Below, piece by piece: positions 11-43,842 of a DNA stretch of 43,842 bases. Source of the stretch: Bacteroidales bacterium (GTDB lineage Bacteria; Bacteroidota; Bacteroidia; Bacteroidales; VadinHA17). The notes under the pieces were generated by a model, which had not been told where the DNA came from, made no database searches, and was given only the letters and a program-made list of their open reading frames with translations. Within the stretch, counting starts at the first letter, position 1, and each line of letters starts with the position of its first letter. The DNA is taken from positions 1 through 43,842 of the forward strand of contig JAHYJA010000006.1 in the NCBI GenBank assembly GCA_019429325.1, given 5' to 3'. Position numbers and translations under genes: made by a program.

Positions 11-52
11 GCGAAGCAGAGTGAGCGATGAGCGGAAAGCGTAAAGCGTAGA
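11..52 (+). repeat. Degenerate heptad array, copy A
   Basis: Six consecutive 7-bp units starting at 11: gcgaagc, agagtga, gcgatga, gcggaaa, gcgtaaa, gcgtaga. The period is exactly 7 with GCG at most unit starts. The last unit, gcgtaga, also occurs in the arrays at 36873-36928 and (reverse complement) 41681-41729. The array lies just upstream of the first gene and may extend past the left edge of the window. Function unknown. Confidence 0.6.
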
Positions 53-94
53 GATAAAAGAGTAAGATATAAAAACACAAAACATAATAGTATT

Positions 95-20061: not shown

Positions 20062-20135
20062 GCCGATGTAGCTCAGTTGGTCAGAGCAGCTGATTTGTAA
20101 TCTGCAGGTCGGGGGTTCGAATCCCTTCATCGGCT
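20062..20135 (+). tRNA. tRNA-Thr(TGT)
   Basis: Complete 74-nt cloverleaf. Acceptor GCCGATG pairs with CATCGGC, D arm GCTC/GAGC, anticodon loop TTTGTAA (anticodon TGT), T arm with loop TTCGAAT, discriminator T, and no encoded CCA. The anticodon stem GCTGA/TCTGC has a T-T mismatch at pair 29-41. First tRNA of a four-tRNA cluster before tuf. Confidence 0.95.
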
Positions 20136-20184
20136 CTTGAAGGAGTTGTGAATGTGTGTCTTGAGAGCGAAGTTCTGTTTTTTT

Positions 20185-20267
20185 GGGGAGATACCAAAGC
20201 GGCCAACTGGGGCAGACTGTAAATCTGCTGGCAAATGCCTTCGTAGGTTCGAATCCTGCTCTCCCCA
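20185..20267 (+). tRNA. tRNA-Tyr(GTA)
   Basis: An 83-nt class II tRNA with a long variable arm. Acceptor GGGGAGA pairs with TCTCCCC, the anticodon stem is GCAGA/TCTGC with loop CTGTAAA (anticodon GTA), T loop TTCGAAT, discriminator A, CCA not encoded. Confidence 0.95.
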
Positions 20268-20334
20268 CTTAAAACGGGAAATATGATATAACGCCGGAAC
20301 AATGGGATATTCCGGTTCTCAAAGACGATAATAA

Positions 20335-20407
20335 GCGGGAGTAGCTCAGTTGGTAGAGCATCAGCCTTCCAAGCTGAGGGTCGCGGATTCGAGCTCCGTC
20401 TCCCGCT
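20335..20407 (+). tRNA. tRNA-Gly(TCC)
   Basis: 73 nt. Acceptor GCGGGAG/CTCCCGC and anticodon stem TCAGC/GCTGA are fully paired; loop CTTCCAA gives anticodon TCC. T loop TTCGAGC, discriminator T, CCA not encoded. Confidence 0.95.
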
Positions 20408-20418
20408 CACTTTTTGAT

Positions 20419-20490
20419 GCCAGAGTAGCTCAGGGGTAGAGCACTTCCTTGGTAAGGAAGGGGTCAGGGGTTCAATTCCCCTCTCCGGCT
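20419..20490 (+). tRNA. tRNA-Thr(GGT)
   Basis: 72 nt. Anticodon stem CTTCC/GGAAG with loop TTGGTAA gives anticodon GGT. T loop TTCAATT, discriminator T, CCA not encoded. Acceptor GCCAGAG against CTCCGGC leaves an A-C mismatch at pair 4-69. Confidence 0.94.
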
Positions 20491-21811: not shown

Positions 21812-21884
21812 ACGGGTGTAGCTCAGTTGGTAGAGCACTGGTCTCCAAAACCAGGTGTCGGGAGTTCGAGTCTCTCCTCCCGTG
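21812..21884 (+). tRNA. tRNA-Trp(CCA)
   Basis: 73 nt. Anticodon stem CTGGT/ACCAG with loop CTCCAAA gives anticodon CCA; T stem GGGAG/CTCTC; discriminator G. Acceptor ACGGGTG against CTCCCGT has a T-T mismatch at pair 6-67. It lies 17 nt before secE, so tRNA 3' processing probably creates the 5' end of the secE mRNA. Confidence 0.94.
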
Positions 21885-36288: not shown

Positions 36289-36906
36289 ATGCTGGCGGAT
36301 AGTCTGAACAGATACAGGATAATACTGGCTTCAGGATCACCCAGGAGGAAACAGCTCCTGGAAGATATGGGACTTAAGTTTGAGGTGATAATCACCTCGG
36401 TCCCGGAGGAGGGTCCTCCGGAACTTGAAGGGAGGGAACTGGCAATGCATGTGGCGGCAGAAAAAGCCCGTATCCTGAAACCAGGATTGAAAAAAACCGA
36501 TATCGTTATCGCTGCAGATACCATAGTCTGGTGCAACGACACGCTGCTCGGAAAACCGGAAGGGATTGACGATGCAGCAGAGATGCTCAGATCCATTTCG
36601 GGCAGGACCCACGAGGTGATTACCGGTGTCTGCATTATGACTGCAGATAAGGAAATCTTATTTTCCGATTCGACAAAAGTCACATTTGGAAAACTTACGG
36701 ATGAAGAGATTTATTATTACATAGATAACTACAAACCCTACGACAAGGCAGGAGCTTATGGGATCCAGGAGTGGATCGGCTATATCGGATGCAGACGTAT
36801 AGAAGGATCATATTTTAATGTGATGGGACTTCCTGTACAGCGGCTCTACCGGGAACTGCAGAGACTGCCAGGGAGCGAGGGGCAGGGGGCAGGGGGTGAG
36901 GCGTGA
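36289..36906 (+). CDS. maf: Maf family nucleoside triphosphate pyrophosphatase
   Basis: 205 residues. The family start ILASGSPRRKQLL (about 13-25) is intact, as are ADTIVWCND and YDKAGAYGIQEW. Maf proteins hydrolyse non-canonical or excess dTTP/UTP and have been linked to septum control. The C-terminal tail is odd: the last ~11 residues (EGQGAGGEA region) are encoded inside the heptad repeat that starts at 36873, and the stop codon is part of a gcgtgag unit. The normal family end would be near the RELQRL segment. Last gene of its operon. Confidence 0.88.
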   Translation: MLADSLNRYRIILASGSPRRKQLLEDMGLKFEVIITSVPEEGPPELEGRELAMHVAAEKARILKPGLKKTDIVIAADTIVWCNDTLLGKPEGIDDAAEMLRSISGRTHEVITGVCIMTADKEILFSDSTKVTFGKLTDEEIYYYIDNYKPYDKAGAYGIQEWIGYIGCRRIEGSYFNVMGLPVQRLYRELQRLPGSEGQGAGGEA

Positions 36907-36928
36907 GGCGTGAGGAGGTGAGCGTAGA
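36873..36928 (+). repeat. Degenerate heptad array, copy B, overlapping the 3' end of maf
   Basis: Eight consecutive 7-bp units: gagcgag, gggcagg, gggcagg, gggtgag, gcgtgag, gcgtgag, gaggtga, gcgtaga. The period is exact with point variation. TGA at 36897-36899, 36904-36906 and 36911-36913 falls in three different frames; the second is the maf stop. Two further units, agggcaa twice, occur at 37172-37185. Confidence 0.8.
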
Positions 36929-37218
36929 GCCCCTCATGGAGGCTGGCGCGGATTTGGCTTCGCCGAGCTCGCGGTTGCTGGCGCCGATTTGGCTTCGCCG
37001 AGCTCGCGGTTGCTGGCGCCGATTTGTAATCGGGGCCTTGTGTTCCGCTCGGTTGTAATCGGGGCCTTGTGTTCCGCTCGGTTGTAATCGGGGCCTGCTT
37101 GATTTAAGTCACGGATCGCAGATCCGCGCCAGCAGGGCTCCAGCCTTCGCCAAGGCTTCGGCTGGCAAAGCAGGGCAAAGGGCAAGAATAAAAAATATAA
37201 ACACAAAACGAATATGAT
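36907..37218. repeat. Gene-free composite repeat region upstream of the S46 peptidase
   Basis: This 312-nt gap has no open frame of note. From left to right it holds: the end of the heptad array (to 36928); the module gcccctcatggaggctggcgc (written in parts: gcccctcatgg, aggctggcgc) at 36929-36949; a 35-bp tandem repeat (36942-36976, 36977-37011, partial 37012-37025); a 29-bp tandem repeat (37026-37054, 37055-37083, partial 37084-37097); a GGATC-gca-GATCC hairpin (37113-37125) followed by GCGCCAGC, the inverse of GCTGGCGC at 36942-36949; a hairpin with CCAGCC/GGCTGG ends (37140-37165); two agggcaa heptads (37172-37185); and an A-rich leader to the ATG. Confidence 0.75.
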
Positions 37219-41660: not shown

Positions 41661-41687
41661 GCGCCAGCCTCCACGAGGGCTCTACGC
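41661..41687 (-). repeat. Composite repeat module, inverted second copy
   Basis: On the minus strand this reads gcgtaga, then gccctcgtgg, then aggctggcgc. It matches 36922-36949 (gcgtaga, gcccctcatgg, aggctggcgc) except for one inserted C and one A/G change, and the shared CCTC-ntg-GAGG hairpin is kept. Confidence 0.75.
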
Positions 41688-41729
41688 TCCCCGCTCCCCG
41701 CTCCCTGCTCTCCGCTTTAAGCCTCCACG
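41681..41729 (-). repeat. Degenerate heptad array, copy C, overlapping the 3' end of the activase gene
   Basis: Read on the minus strand: cgtggag, gcttaaa, gcggaga, gcaggga, gcgggga, gcgggga, gcgtaga. The TAA stop of the activase gene (41719-41717) lies in the gcttaaa unit. A 10-bp direct repeat AGCCTCCACG occurs at both edges (41666-41675 and 41720-41729). Confidence 0.75.
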
Positions 41730-43842
41730 GGAGCTCCGGCCATCGCTGCAGCATACTCCTTCACCTGGAAGACAAAAGCCTGCAGCCGTGTATCAAGCGA
41801 AACAGTGTCCTGACCGTCGTAGGCTATGTTAATAAACGGAATGTTCTTATGGTCTTTTCTGAATGAGTCGCTCACAGCAGCAATTAATGTGCCCGGCATG
41901 CATGTAAAGGGCAATATTGCAGCCAGACCGGAGACGCCTCTGCCGGCAAGAGCCACTGAAGAACCCATTGCAATTGGCGGATCGCCATCATAAAATTCGT
42001 TTACGTAGGTGTTGCACAGCCTCAGCATATCATGAAGAGAAACATCTTTTTCGTGGTCGGTGAATTTCTTTATCCCTCTCAGCAGTGAGTTGGCAATAAC
42101 ATCCTGGCCAAATCCCTGGATCTTTGATTTTATAACCCCTTTCTTATCGTTTTTCCAACGGCTGTCGCGGGTGAATCTATAGGTGGAGTAGAATATCCAT
42201 TCCGAGAATGGCCCTATAACAACCTCAACCCCAAGATCTTCAAGCCTGTTGGCAATATTGCCGTTACAGCCGGCATTGTCGCGCATAAAGATCTCCCCGA
42301 TAATGGCCACAACCGGCTTTCGCTGACTCCTGTCGGCTTCGATGGCCTGAAAATCATATACAATTTGTTTAAGGACCTTATGGAGCCCTTTCGATCCCTT
42401 TTCAATACAAACCTCAAGTTTTTTCAGCGACTCTTCATAAAGCCTGTCTGAATCACCCTTATTGATTTCGTATGGCCTGGTCTCCCTGTATACTTTCCTG
42501 AGAAAGTCGGCAACAACGAATCCTTTCCAGGCATTGATCCTGAATTTCTGGCCATGATCACCCACCACGTCTTCATACGATGTGTCGTTCGACGGGGTTA
42601 TCAGTTCAGCTTCGCTGAAGCCGAGCCGGTCAAAGAGGATACGGTGAAAATGGTTATATTGTCCGAACCTGCATGGTCCGTTGTGATCGGGCATGAAAAA
42701 ACTCATTTTGGAGGGGTCCGCTCCGGGTTCCATCAGCTTTTTAATAAAACTGCCTGTGGTGCATATCATCGGAAAGCACTCTTTTGACGAGGTATATTTT
42801 CTTCCGATTGCGAGATCCTCTTCGGTCTGCCTGGGCAGGACCTCGGAAGGGATGCCGCAGTTGCGCGCAGCCGCTGCAAGCAGGTAGCCTCCGTCGTTCA
42901 TATACGGGAAATACAACACCCTCTCTTTTGGCGGTGATGCAGGACTTGGACGGGGACGGAATATTTCCGGATCCTTCTTTTCATTCTTTTCTGAGCCCTT
43001 CAGACTGTCGAGAAACGCTTCGATACGAGTTACCATACCTGCATCGGCAGAGTGTTCATCCACTTCGAGATGCAGGAAAGGTTTCGCTTTCAGCTCTTCT
43101 GTAACGTAATGCCAGATGAAGGAGTCCGGACCGCACCGGAAATTGCTCAGGTAAACAGCATATAATCCTTCAGTTTTAGCGACATGCTGGGCAGCAGCAA
43201 TCATTTTTTGTCCGTTGGGCCAGTACATGTTCCTGTAATTCTCAAAGATATTGTATGCTGACAGATCGAGCATGTCGAGCGGTATGGGCATGACATTCTG
43301 GTTGATCAGCTTCTCGACAAGTCCCAGGTTAAGATGAGGATCGGTGCTGTTATACGGCCTTCCCAGCAATAAAACCGGCCGGCAGTTTTCCGGAATGGAA
43401 TTCATTACTTCTTTGCCGTAATCTATAAGCCTCTTCTCAAATTTTACCTGAACTGCATCAGCGTCGTAGATTGCTTTCCTTACAGCCTCTTTACTTATCC
43501 CGAACTTCTCCCCGAAATATTGTGTCATCTCCTTTACCAGCGCCCTCTCAAAAAACCTGAAATGGAGTGTGGGCATCAGGAGCCTGGATTCATCAATCTT
43601 TCCTTTAAGAGCAGCCTTTATCATGAACGGGTAAGTCTGGATCCAGGGGCAGTTACAGTTAAAGGTCTTGTTCCCTTCGCGGAACTTGGAGTTAACAATA
43701 AATGGGAGAAATATATAATCGGCATCCTTGTTGACAAGGTCAATGACATGGCCGTGCATCAGCTCTACAGGAAGGCATGTTTCTGTCGTTATGGTTTCGA
43801 TGGATTCAGTGACAAGCGTTTTATCCGATTCCCTCGAGAGCA
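41717..43842 (-). CDS. 2-hydroxyacyl-CoA dehydratase activase-related protein (DUF2229/HgdB-like), 5' end outside window
   Basis: 707 residues are visible and the frame stays open to the right edge, so the N-terminus is missing. Translation upstream of the Met at 43759 continues a conserved stretch (TETCLPVELMHGH), which shows that Met is internal. Visible domains are a DUF2229-like part with CNCPWIQTYPF near the start and an HgdB-like part with SSKECFPM, NGPCRFGQY and NAGCNGN, whose cysteines suggest Fe-S binding. Full-length relatives of about 1400 residues carry an ATP-dependent BcrA/BadF-type activase domain at the N-terminus. The role in this organism is unknown; the classical partners activate dehydration of 2-hydroxyacyl-CoA. 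Confidence 0.85.
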   Translation of the reverse strand, partial: LSRESDKTLVTESIETITTETCLPVELMHGHVIDLVNKDADYIFLPFIVNSKFREGNKTFNCNCPWIQTYPFMIKAALKGKIDESRLLMPTLHFRFFERALVKEMTQYFGEKFGISKEAVRKAIYDADAVQVKFEKRLIDYGKEVMNSIPENCRPVLLLGRPYNSTDPHLNLGLVEKLINQNVMPIPLDMLDLSAYNIFENYRNMYWPNGQKMIAAAQHVAKTEGLYAVYLSNFRCGPDSFIWHYVTEELKAKPFLHLEVDEHSADAGMVTRIEAFLDSLKGSEKNEKKDPEIFRPRPSPASPPKERVLYFPYMNDGGYLLAAAARNCGIPSEVLPRQTEEDLAIGRKYTSSKECFPMICTTGSFIKKLMEPGADPSKMSFFMPDHNGPCRFGQYNHFHRILFDRLGFSEAELITPSNDTSYEDVVGDHGQKFRINAWKGFVVADFLRKVYRETRPYEINKGDSDRLYEESLKKLEVCIEKGSKGLHKVLKQIVYDFQAIEADRSQRKPVVAIIGEIFMRDNAGCNGNIANRLEDLGVEVVIGPFSEWIFYSTYRFTRDSRWKNDKKGVIKSKIQGFGQDVIANSLLRGIKKFTDHEKDVSLHDMLRLCNTYVNEFYDGDPPIAMGSSVALAGRGVSGLAAILPFTCMPGTLIAAVSDSFRKDHKNIPFINIAYDGQDTVSLDTRLQAFVFQVKEYAAAMAGAPVEA

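Follow-up and report, generated by a model that had tools for sequence, protein, structure and literature searches.

In many prokaryotes, tandem heptamers are the most abundant intergenic repeats according to the SPADE survey (PMC6344855). Mrazek et al. 2007, as cited in PMC4692102 and PMC4679880, found heptads overrepresented and proposed that the number seven may reflect the stretch of DNA contacting the polymerase. The prokaryotic heptanucleotide long simple sequence repeats described in these three sources resemble the arrays reported here in their 7-nt tandem unit, their intergenic location and a genome-wide peak at period 7. A first reading of the sequence (the original prediction) had stated that no named element of this kind was known; tandem heptanucleotide repeats are in fact a described class (PMC6344855, PMC4692102, PMC4679880). 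The published heptad reports, as these sources present them, mostly concern one word at a time, whereas the arrays here are degenerate and their word shifts along their length. They add to a known kind of repeat a new case of unusual diversity. A search of PMC4060949 for heptad terms had no match.

Among the closest described systems, the GGGAATC repeats of Xanthomonas and the GGGGA(C/T)T repeats of Nostoc are likewise mostly intergenic heptads with paired convergent arrays, and those of Xanthomonas are closer to their 5' neighbouring ORF, as are the arrays here (PMC4692102). According to this source, a single G-quadruplex word per genome was studied; here many words occur, and G-tracts of the GGGAATC/GGGGAYT type are not general, a G-quadruplex motif being present in 10 of the 42 arrays refined below and the GCGTAGA word having no G-tract of three. 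The TAACTGA repeats of Beggiatoaceae, Cyanobacteria and some Bacteroidetes are also heptad direct repeats, and in two Bacteroidetes other heptad repeats share their intergenic regions (PMC4679880). Unlike the arrays here, they are described as having a fixed word and, in the main genome of that study, as standing mostly directly before start codons; the present genome has 30 words, with 26 arrays at 3' ends and 5 at 5' ends of genes. In Geobacter metallireducens, short GGGACCG and MTYCTGA arrays are dispersed at 49 and 16 places with a fixed word and unit number (four units for GGGACCG; five for MTYCTGA in 15 of 16), and the GGGACCG arrays are found within genes as well as between them (PMC2700814). 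Three heptanucleotide repeats of Calothrix are cited in PMC4692102. These are dispersed 7-nt tandems like those described here, with three words and in another host lineage. The heptad repeats of Calothrix also bear the name STRR and are reportedly treated in Mazel et al. 1990.

The window, i.e. the whole stretch of DNA analysed (43,842 nucleotides), corresponds to a whole contig (C176) of a draft genome of 3.39 Mb in 263 contigs. A self-similarity scan of the window was performed with lags of 3 to 30 and a threshold of at least 24 identities on 35 positions. In agreement with the original prediction of three arrays with an exact 7-nt period, it returned exactly three lag-7 sites (20-65, 36867-36925 and 41673-41729, with peaks of 24, 28 and 27 out of 35, respectively); the sole match at any other lag was at lag 29 (37006-37108). 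In 200 dinucleotide shuffles of the window the highest lag-7 peak was 23, and 24/35 was thus reached in none of them. When all lags from 2 to 30 were allowed, using 40 shuffles, 24/35 was reached in 3 of 1,160 lag-by-shuffle cases, so that array 1 (peak of 24) is only moderately beyond chance when no lag is fixed beforehand. By TRF, too, array 1 is the weakest (score of 33). As predicted, the strand that reads gcg is purine-rich in all three arrays. The arrays and the features adjoining them are the following:

22-53, forward strand: heptad array 1, refined core (gcggaaa gcgtaaa gcgtaga), lag-7 peak 24/35, at the contig edge
36289-36906, forward strand: maf, Maf family nucleotide pyrophosphatase (TIGR00172, 149.5 bits against a cut-off of 117.15)
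36869-36928, forward strand: heptad array 2 (ggggcag, gcgtgag, gcgtaga), lag-7 peak 28/35, overlapping maf and supplying its stop
36929-36949, forward strand: 21-nt block directly 3' of array 2, common to array 3 (sequence match)
36942-37096, forward strand: two adjacent near-perfect tandem repeats (35-bp unit x2.4 and 29-bp unit x2.5) adjoining array 2
41661-41681, reverse strand: second copy of the 21-nt block, behind array 3 (2 mismatches)
41679-41716, reverse strand: heptad array 3 (gcggaga gcaggga gcgggga gcgggga gcgtaga), lag-7 peak 27/35, in the sense direction of the activase-like gene
41717-43840, reverse strand: activase-like gene (DUF2229), 3' part, truncated by the contig end (PF09989, 132 bits)

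Array 2 starts at about 36868 (coarse extent 36869-36924, refined core 36879-36915), and its heptads continue past the core to GCGTAGA at 36922-36928. A known RNA family was ruled out for the arrays, since Rfam searches of the whole window at gathering scores returned five tRNAs and no other RNA family; the tRNA genes form a cluster of four at 20062-20490, with a fifth at 21812-21884.

The predicted location of arrays at gene ends, in the orientation of the gene, is shown for two of the three, arrays 2 and 3. Array 1 is at the contig edge: its core ends 41 bp 5' of the start codon of the gene at 95-1435, and the gene to its left falls outside the contig. Array 3 begins immediately after the TAA of the activase-like gene; most of the relatives listed have an open frame of some 1,420 aa for this gene. 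At maf the stop codon (36904-36906) is inside array 2, from which the last 12 codons are read. For comparison with relatives, the Maf query was truncated at 36867, directly before the heptads, and the best matches in genus members had 54-64% identity. Beyond the position equivalent to 36867, the stop is reached within 3-45 nt in relatives and after 39 nt in the window, inside array 2. At a phase-variation (contingency) locus, unit number would turn a gene on and off; TGA recurs in the heptads of array 2, and a change in unit number should therefore, judging from the sequence, alter the tail of Maf only. Arrays that hold a stop codon illustrate how repeats may rewrite the ends of proteins.

Further copies were sought in the whole genome with a GCG-heptad pattern at up to 2 mismatches. 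It gave 259 overlapping matches, several of them at contig ends, against 100 for the reversed pattern, a control that is not neutral because it fits other heptads. The original prediction is supported in that the genome holds many further copies. A genome sample was then composed of every fourth contig from C1 to C237 (60 stretches of at most 20 kb each) and of the window, for a total of 677 kb (661 kb without N). In the lag spectrum of the sample without N (at least 25/35), lag 7 accounted for 37 places, lag 8 for 13, lag 9 for 7, lag 10 for 1 and lag 11 for 5, against 1 place for lags 2-6 together. With TRF (score of at least 40), 34 of 152 repeats in the sample had period 7, compared with none of the 8 repeats in a shuffled control, so that these tandems, like the published heptanucleotide repeats, are longer than expected by chance. 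After refinement of the boundaries, 42 heptad arrays were counted in the 661-kb sample; their 30 consensus words fall into 13 groups (single linkage, one mismatch; 24 segments in the largest), and extrapolation to the whole genome gives about 215 arrays. The arrays are thus many heptad repeats with a common period and differing words, and not a single element. A genome in which one period is kept across so many words is a good test case for repeats of this kind.

An array begins within the first 110 bp of 6 of the 61 sampled contigs, which indicates that they probably break the assembly and are undercounted; they may account for part of its fragmentation. These contig-edge positions, in a fragmented draft, could also speak for an artefact of assembly or binning. 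That explanation is very hard to sustain: arrays 2 and 3 are inside a contig, the start of an S46 peptidase gene follows maf in many relatives too (by eye), and similar arrays occur, among the matches listed, in records of Shewanella, Saccharibacillus and Hylemonella that are not labelled as metagenome-assembled.

The original prediction regarded the arrays as copies of one dispersed element with the unit gcgtaga, a view that the 30 words in 42 arrays contradict. A mobile element carrying the heptads should have a common sequence at its boundaries. In a comparison of 97 flanks of 54 arrays, from which pairs within one locus (such as the 21-nt block of arrays 2 and 3) were excluded, no such sequence emerged: 79 of the 97 flanks had no match at another locus, and the 18 that did were largely, by inspection, composite blocks with 8- and 9-nt arrays. 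The 18 matching flanks and the 21-nt block common to arrays 2 and 3 are points in favour of mobility, but the block has only 3 occurrences genome-wide when up to 3 mismatches are allowed (control 0). In composite blocks, heptads adjoin 8-, 9- and 11-nt tandem arrays (e.g. L073, 5458-6177 on contig C169, and L035, 7148-7454 on contig C17), and pieces of such blocks are found again at other loci.

The distribution across genomes bears on the same question. Among 48 genomes of the genus (own genome included), 24 carry the exact GCG-heptad pattern, as against 0 of 32 genomes belonging to other families in the order, which counts in favour of a mobile element; however, the reversed control pattern is present in 15 of the 48 and also in 0 of the 32, which shows that heptads with various words abound in the genus. 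In 100-kb samples, the density of lag-7 arrays was 5.6 per 100 kb in the own genome, 0 to 3 in six genus mates, 0 in five genomes of other families and 8 in G334, a genome of another class chosen for carrying GCGTAGA. Array-rich and array-poor members of one genus are thereby open to comparison. In a collection of 84,980 species, at least 110 stretches contain three exact GCGTAGA units in a row, and the matches listed belong to Bacteroidales, Planctomycetota, Omnitrophota, Patescibacteria, Chloroflexota, Proteobacteria, Firmicutes and others (phyla assigned partly by hand). With GCGTAGA masked, the 49 non-Bacteroidota loci among these listed matches still showed lag 7 in 23 cases, lag 6 in 7, lag 9 in 5, lag 8 in 1 and lag 5 in 0. 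Among 394 other Bacteroidota genomes sampled, GCGTAGA arrays were found in 2 and the reversed word in 1; spread of the word by transfer was rejected on this comparison, and independent origin suffices. Considering these results together with the unique flanks, a dispersed mobile element is highly improbable. The reversed control word of GCGTAGA has 9 matches in G111, so that a distant relative has another heptad array.

The same gene ends were examined in relatives. For maf, 38 of 41 genomes were matched and 30 loci were read, 29 of them from relatives, of which one is at a contig edge; among the 28 readable relatives only one (G018) has an array at the site, with a different word (GAAGCCT) that likewise provides the stop. 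For the activase-like gene, 12 relative loci were read, one of which aligned only in part, and four distant matches were left out; among the 11 comparable relatives a strong array (CCTGAGC type) is present in G015 and a weak one, recognized by eye, in G008. A third site, the end of an acyltransferase gene (contig C109), carries about 13 units of GTTCAAG type in the own genome. In 13 relatives (ten distant matches left out) it has no strong array, and a weak one, again by eye, in G008. At each of the three gene ends most relatives are therefore without an array, strong arrays being found at 2 of the 52 comparable loci. This proportion is about that expected from the general density of arrays, and these gene ends were rejected as hot spots.

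An array was considered as near a gene end when it overlapped this end or was located within 60 bp of it, the nearest end being counted on our own gene calls. By this definition, 31 of the 42 refined arrays are near a gene end, and the predicted non-random position is evident (26 at 3' ends against 5 at 5' ends). When 38 coarse arrays were placed, 30 fell in gaps, a few of these reaching into a gene end, while 7 were at contig edges and 1 was in a called gene; like other heptanucleotide repeats, the arrays are mostly intergenic. Repeated words near gene ends could be bound by a regulator acting at the transcriptional or post-transcriptional level, the role suggested for the TAACTGA repeats. 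The latter, in the Beggiatoaceae genome described in PMC4679880, are a single word mostly just before start codons; with variable words and 26 of 31 arrays at 3' ends, such a role seems even less probable here than a mobile element.

The arrays might alternatively be functional 3' elements which, being G-rich in the RNA of their own gene and C-rich in the opposing RNA, would stop opposing transcripts (e.g. through Rho acting on C-rich, YC-repeated RNA) or form G-quadruplexes or R-loops at transcription ends. The density of arrays is highest in convergent gaps (1.66 per kb, against 0.48 in co-directional and 0.35 in divergent gaps), which favours such a role; by number of gaps, 8 of 79 convergent, 13 of 323 co-directional and 5 of 74 divergent gaps have an array (convergent versus rest, p = 0.057). 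By inspection, two convergent gaps (L032 and L089) hold two arrays, each G-rich for its own gene. The strand bias announced by the original prediction is clear only for arrays that touch or overlap the stop, 17 of 18 being G-rich on the sense strand: 9 of 9 of those that overlap it (7 of the 9 with more stop triplets sense than antisense) and 8 of 9 of those located 0-5 bp after an intact stop. Array-free 3' flanks have no G bias (209:202). Arrays located at least 14 bp beyond the stop have no bias, half of them (4 of 8) being G-rich in sense; the 5-bp cut between these classes was chosen after the distances were seen. Taking all refined arrays with the stop outside (0-60 bp), the count is 12 versus 5 G-rich in sense (p = 0.14), and with a coarser array boundary in the own genome it is 5 versus 5. 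In the 0-5 bp class, a sense stop triplet is missing from five of the eight G-rich arrays, and three (L032, L054 and L078) are free of stop triplets on both strands, so selection for stops does not explain their G-rich sense strand.

Arrays of other genomes were used for a wider strand count, covering exact GCGTAGA arrays at 80 loci among the matches listed; a single Bacteroidales assembly (UBA5621) contributes many of these loci. Here, 84 distinct GCGTAGA arrays gave 40 sense versus 10 antisense 3' ends in a read-through count; 13 of the 84 are inside ORFs, all on the stop-free strand. A ratio of 38 sense to 4 antisense, obtained among the listed matches for 3' ends within 40 bp with these 13 arrays set aside, was discarded as inflated because heptads with TAG terminate ORFs by themselves. 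When the stop is wholly outside the array, the listed matches give 18 sense versus 7 antisense (p = 0.04). For heptads other than GCGTAGA outside the own genome it is 7 versus 3, which is not significant. Part of the strand bias thus arises because a stop codon is required or is what is being detected; a remainder beyond this is likely but not firm. On the stop-free strand of GCGTAGA arrays in other genomes, ORFs of 1.1-2.4 kb cross the repeats at L169, L170, L198, L199, L214 and L222; they may be chance frames or may encode real proteins in which the heptads form an insert.

Published heptads speak on both sides of the functional explanation: in their discussion, Rehm et al. claim a coding-strand preference downstream of ORFs and describe paired convergent arrays in Xanthomonas and Nostoc, but the strand counts given there are mixed, with 30% same and 35% opposite for co-directional genes in X. 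campestris and 18% and 34% in Nostoc (PMC4692102). Considering also the missing bias away from the stop, the missing arrays in most relatives at the three sites, the low share of arrays with a G-quadruplex motif and the non-significant count of the other words, a functional 3' element is unlikely.

The internal structure of the arrays points to their mode of growth. In 31 arrays of at least 49 nt, the identity between units decreases with distance (0.70, 0.64, 0.57, 0.51 and 0.46 at 1 to 5 units, compared with about 0.28 off phase), as is expected from stepwise local copying with inherited changes, and isolated changes between adjacent units comprise 55 transitions and 24 transversions. This gradual drift fits the slippage-driven growth put forward in the original prediction. 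We consider the arrays to be, probably, imperfect heptanucleotide tandem repeats grown by slippage and tolerated behind stop codons. This reading also draws on the placement mostly at 3' ends, the missing arrays at the same site in most relatives, the unique flanks, the G-rich sense strand of all 9 arrays that overlap a stop and the stop-free strand of the 13 arrays inside ORFs. A short duplication would arise by chance beside a stop codon and be extended by slipped copying, 7 nt per step; point changes would be acquired and then inherited by later copies, and the array would be tolerated because it is located behind the stop. As 7 is not a multiple of 3, a stop triplet (TAG, TGA or TAA) in the heptad comes into each of the three reading frames in turn over some 21 nt, and an array reaching over a gene end, as at maf, would survive only in the orientation where a stop soon follows. 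Slippage of this kind would make a regulatory function unnecessary, and it takes the period of 7 as given.

The period itself would be accounted for by a sequence-independent 7-nt copying or repair step which, preferring transcription ends, would write arrays at stop codons, some genomes possessing a factor that promotes it. Such a step would conserve the period and not the word, and a G-rich non-template strand, R-loops and converging polymerases could provide its setting; we regard both the step and this setting as unlikely, slightly more so than a functional 3' element. Among candidate features of slippage growth, outward extension from the stop codon was ruled out, since proximal and distal unit identities are even (5 versus 5 of 11 arrays). 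Loss of mismatch repair and a Y-family polymerase were rejected as causes: MutS-family domains and Y-family polymerases are each present in 14 of 14 genomes tested, array-rich and array-poor alike, and neither separates the two groups. A strong MutS1-like match was missing only from G045, an array-poor genome with a completeness of 89%.

Next to array 2, a palindromic repeat (CTGGCGCGGATTTGTAATCCGTGCC) is found at 37013-37037 and 37119-37132 of the window. With up to 3 mismatches allowed, it is matched at 20 places genome-wide (control 0), and in G018 (L133) tandem copies of it follow the heptads found at maf.
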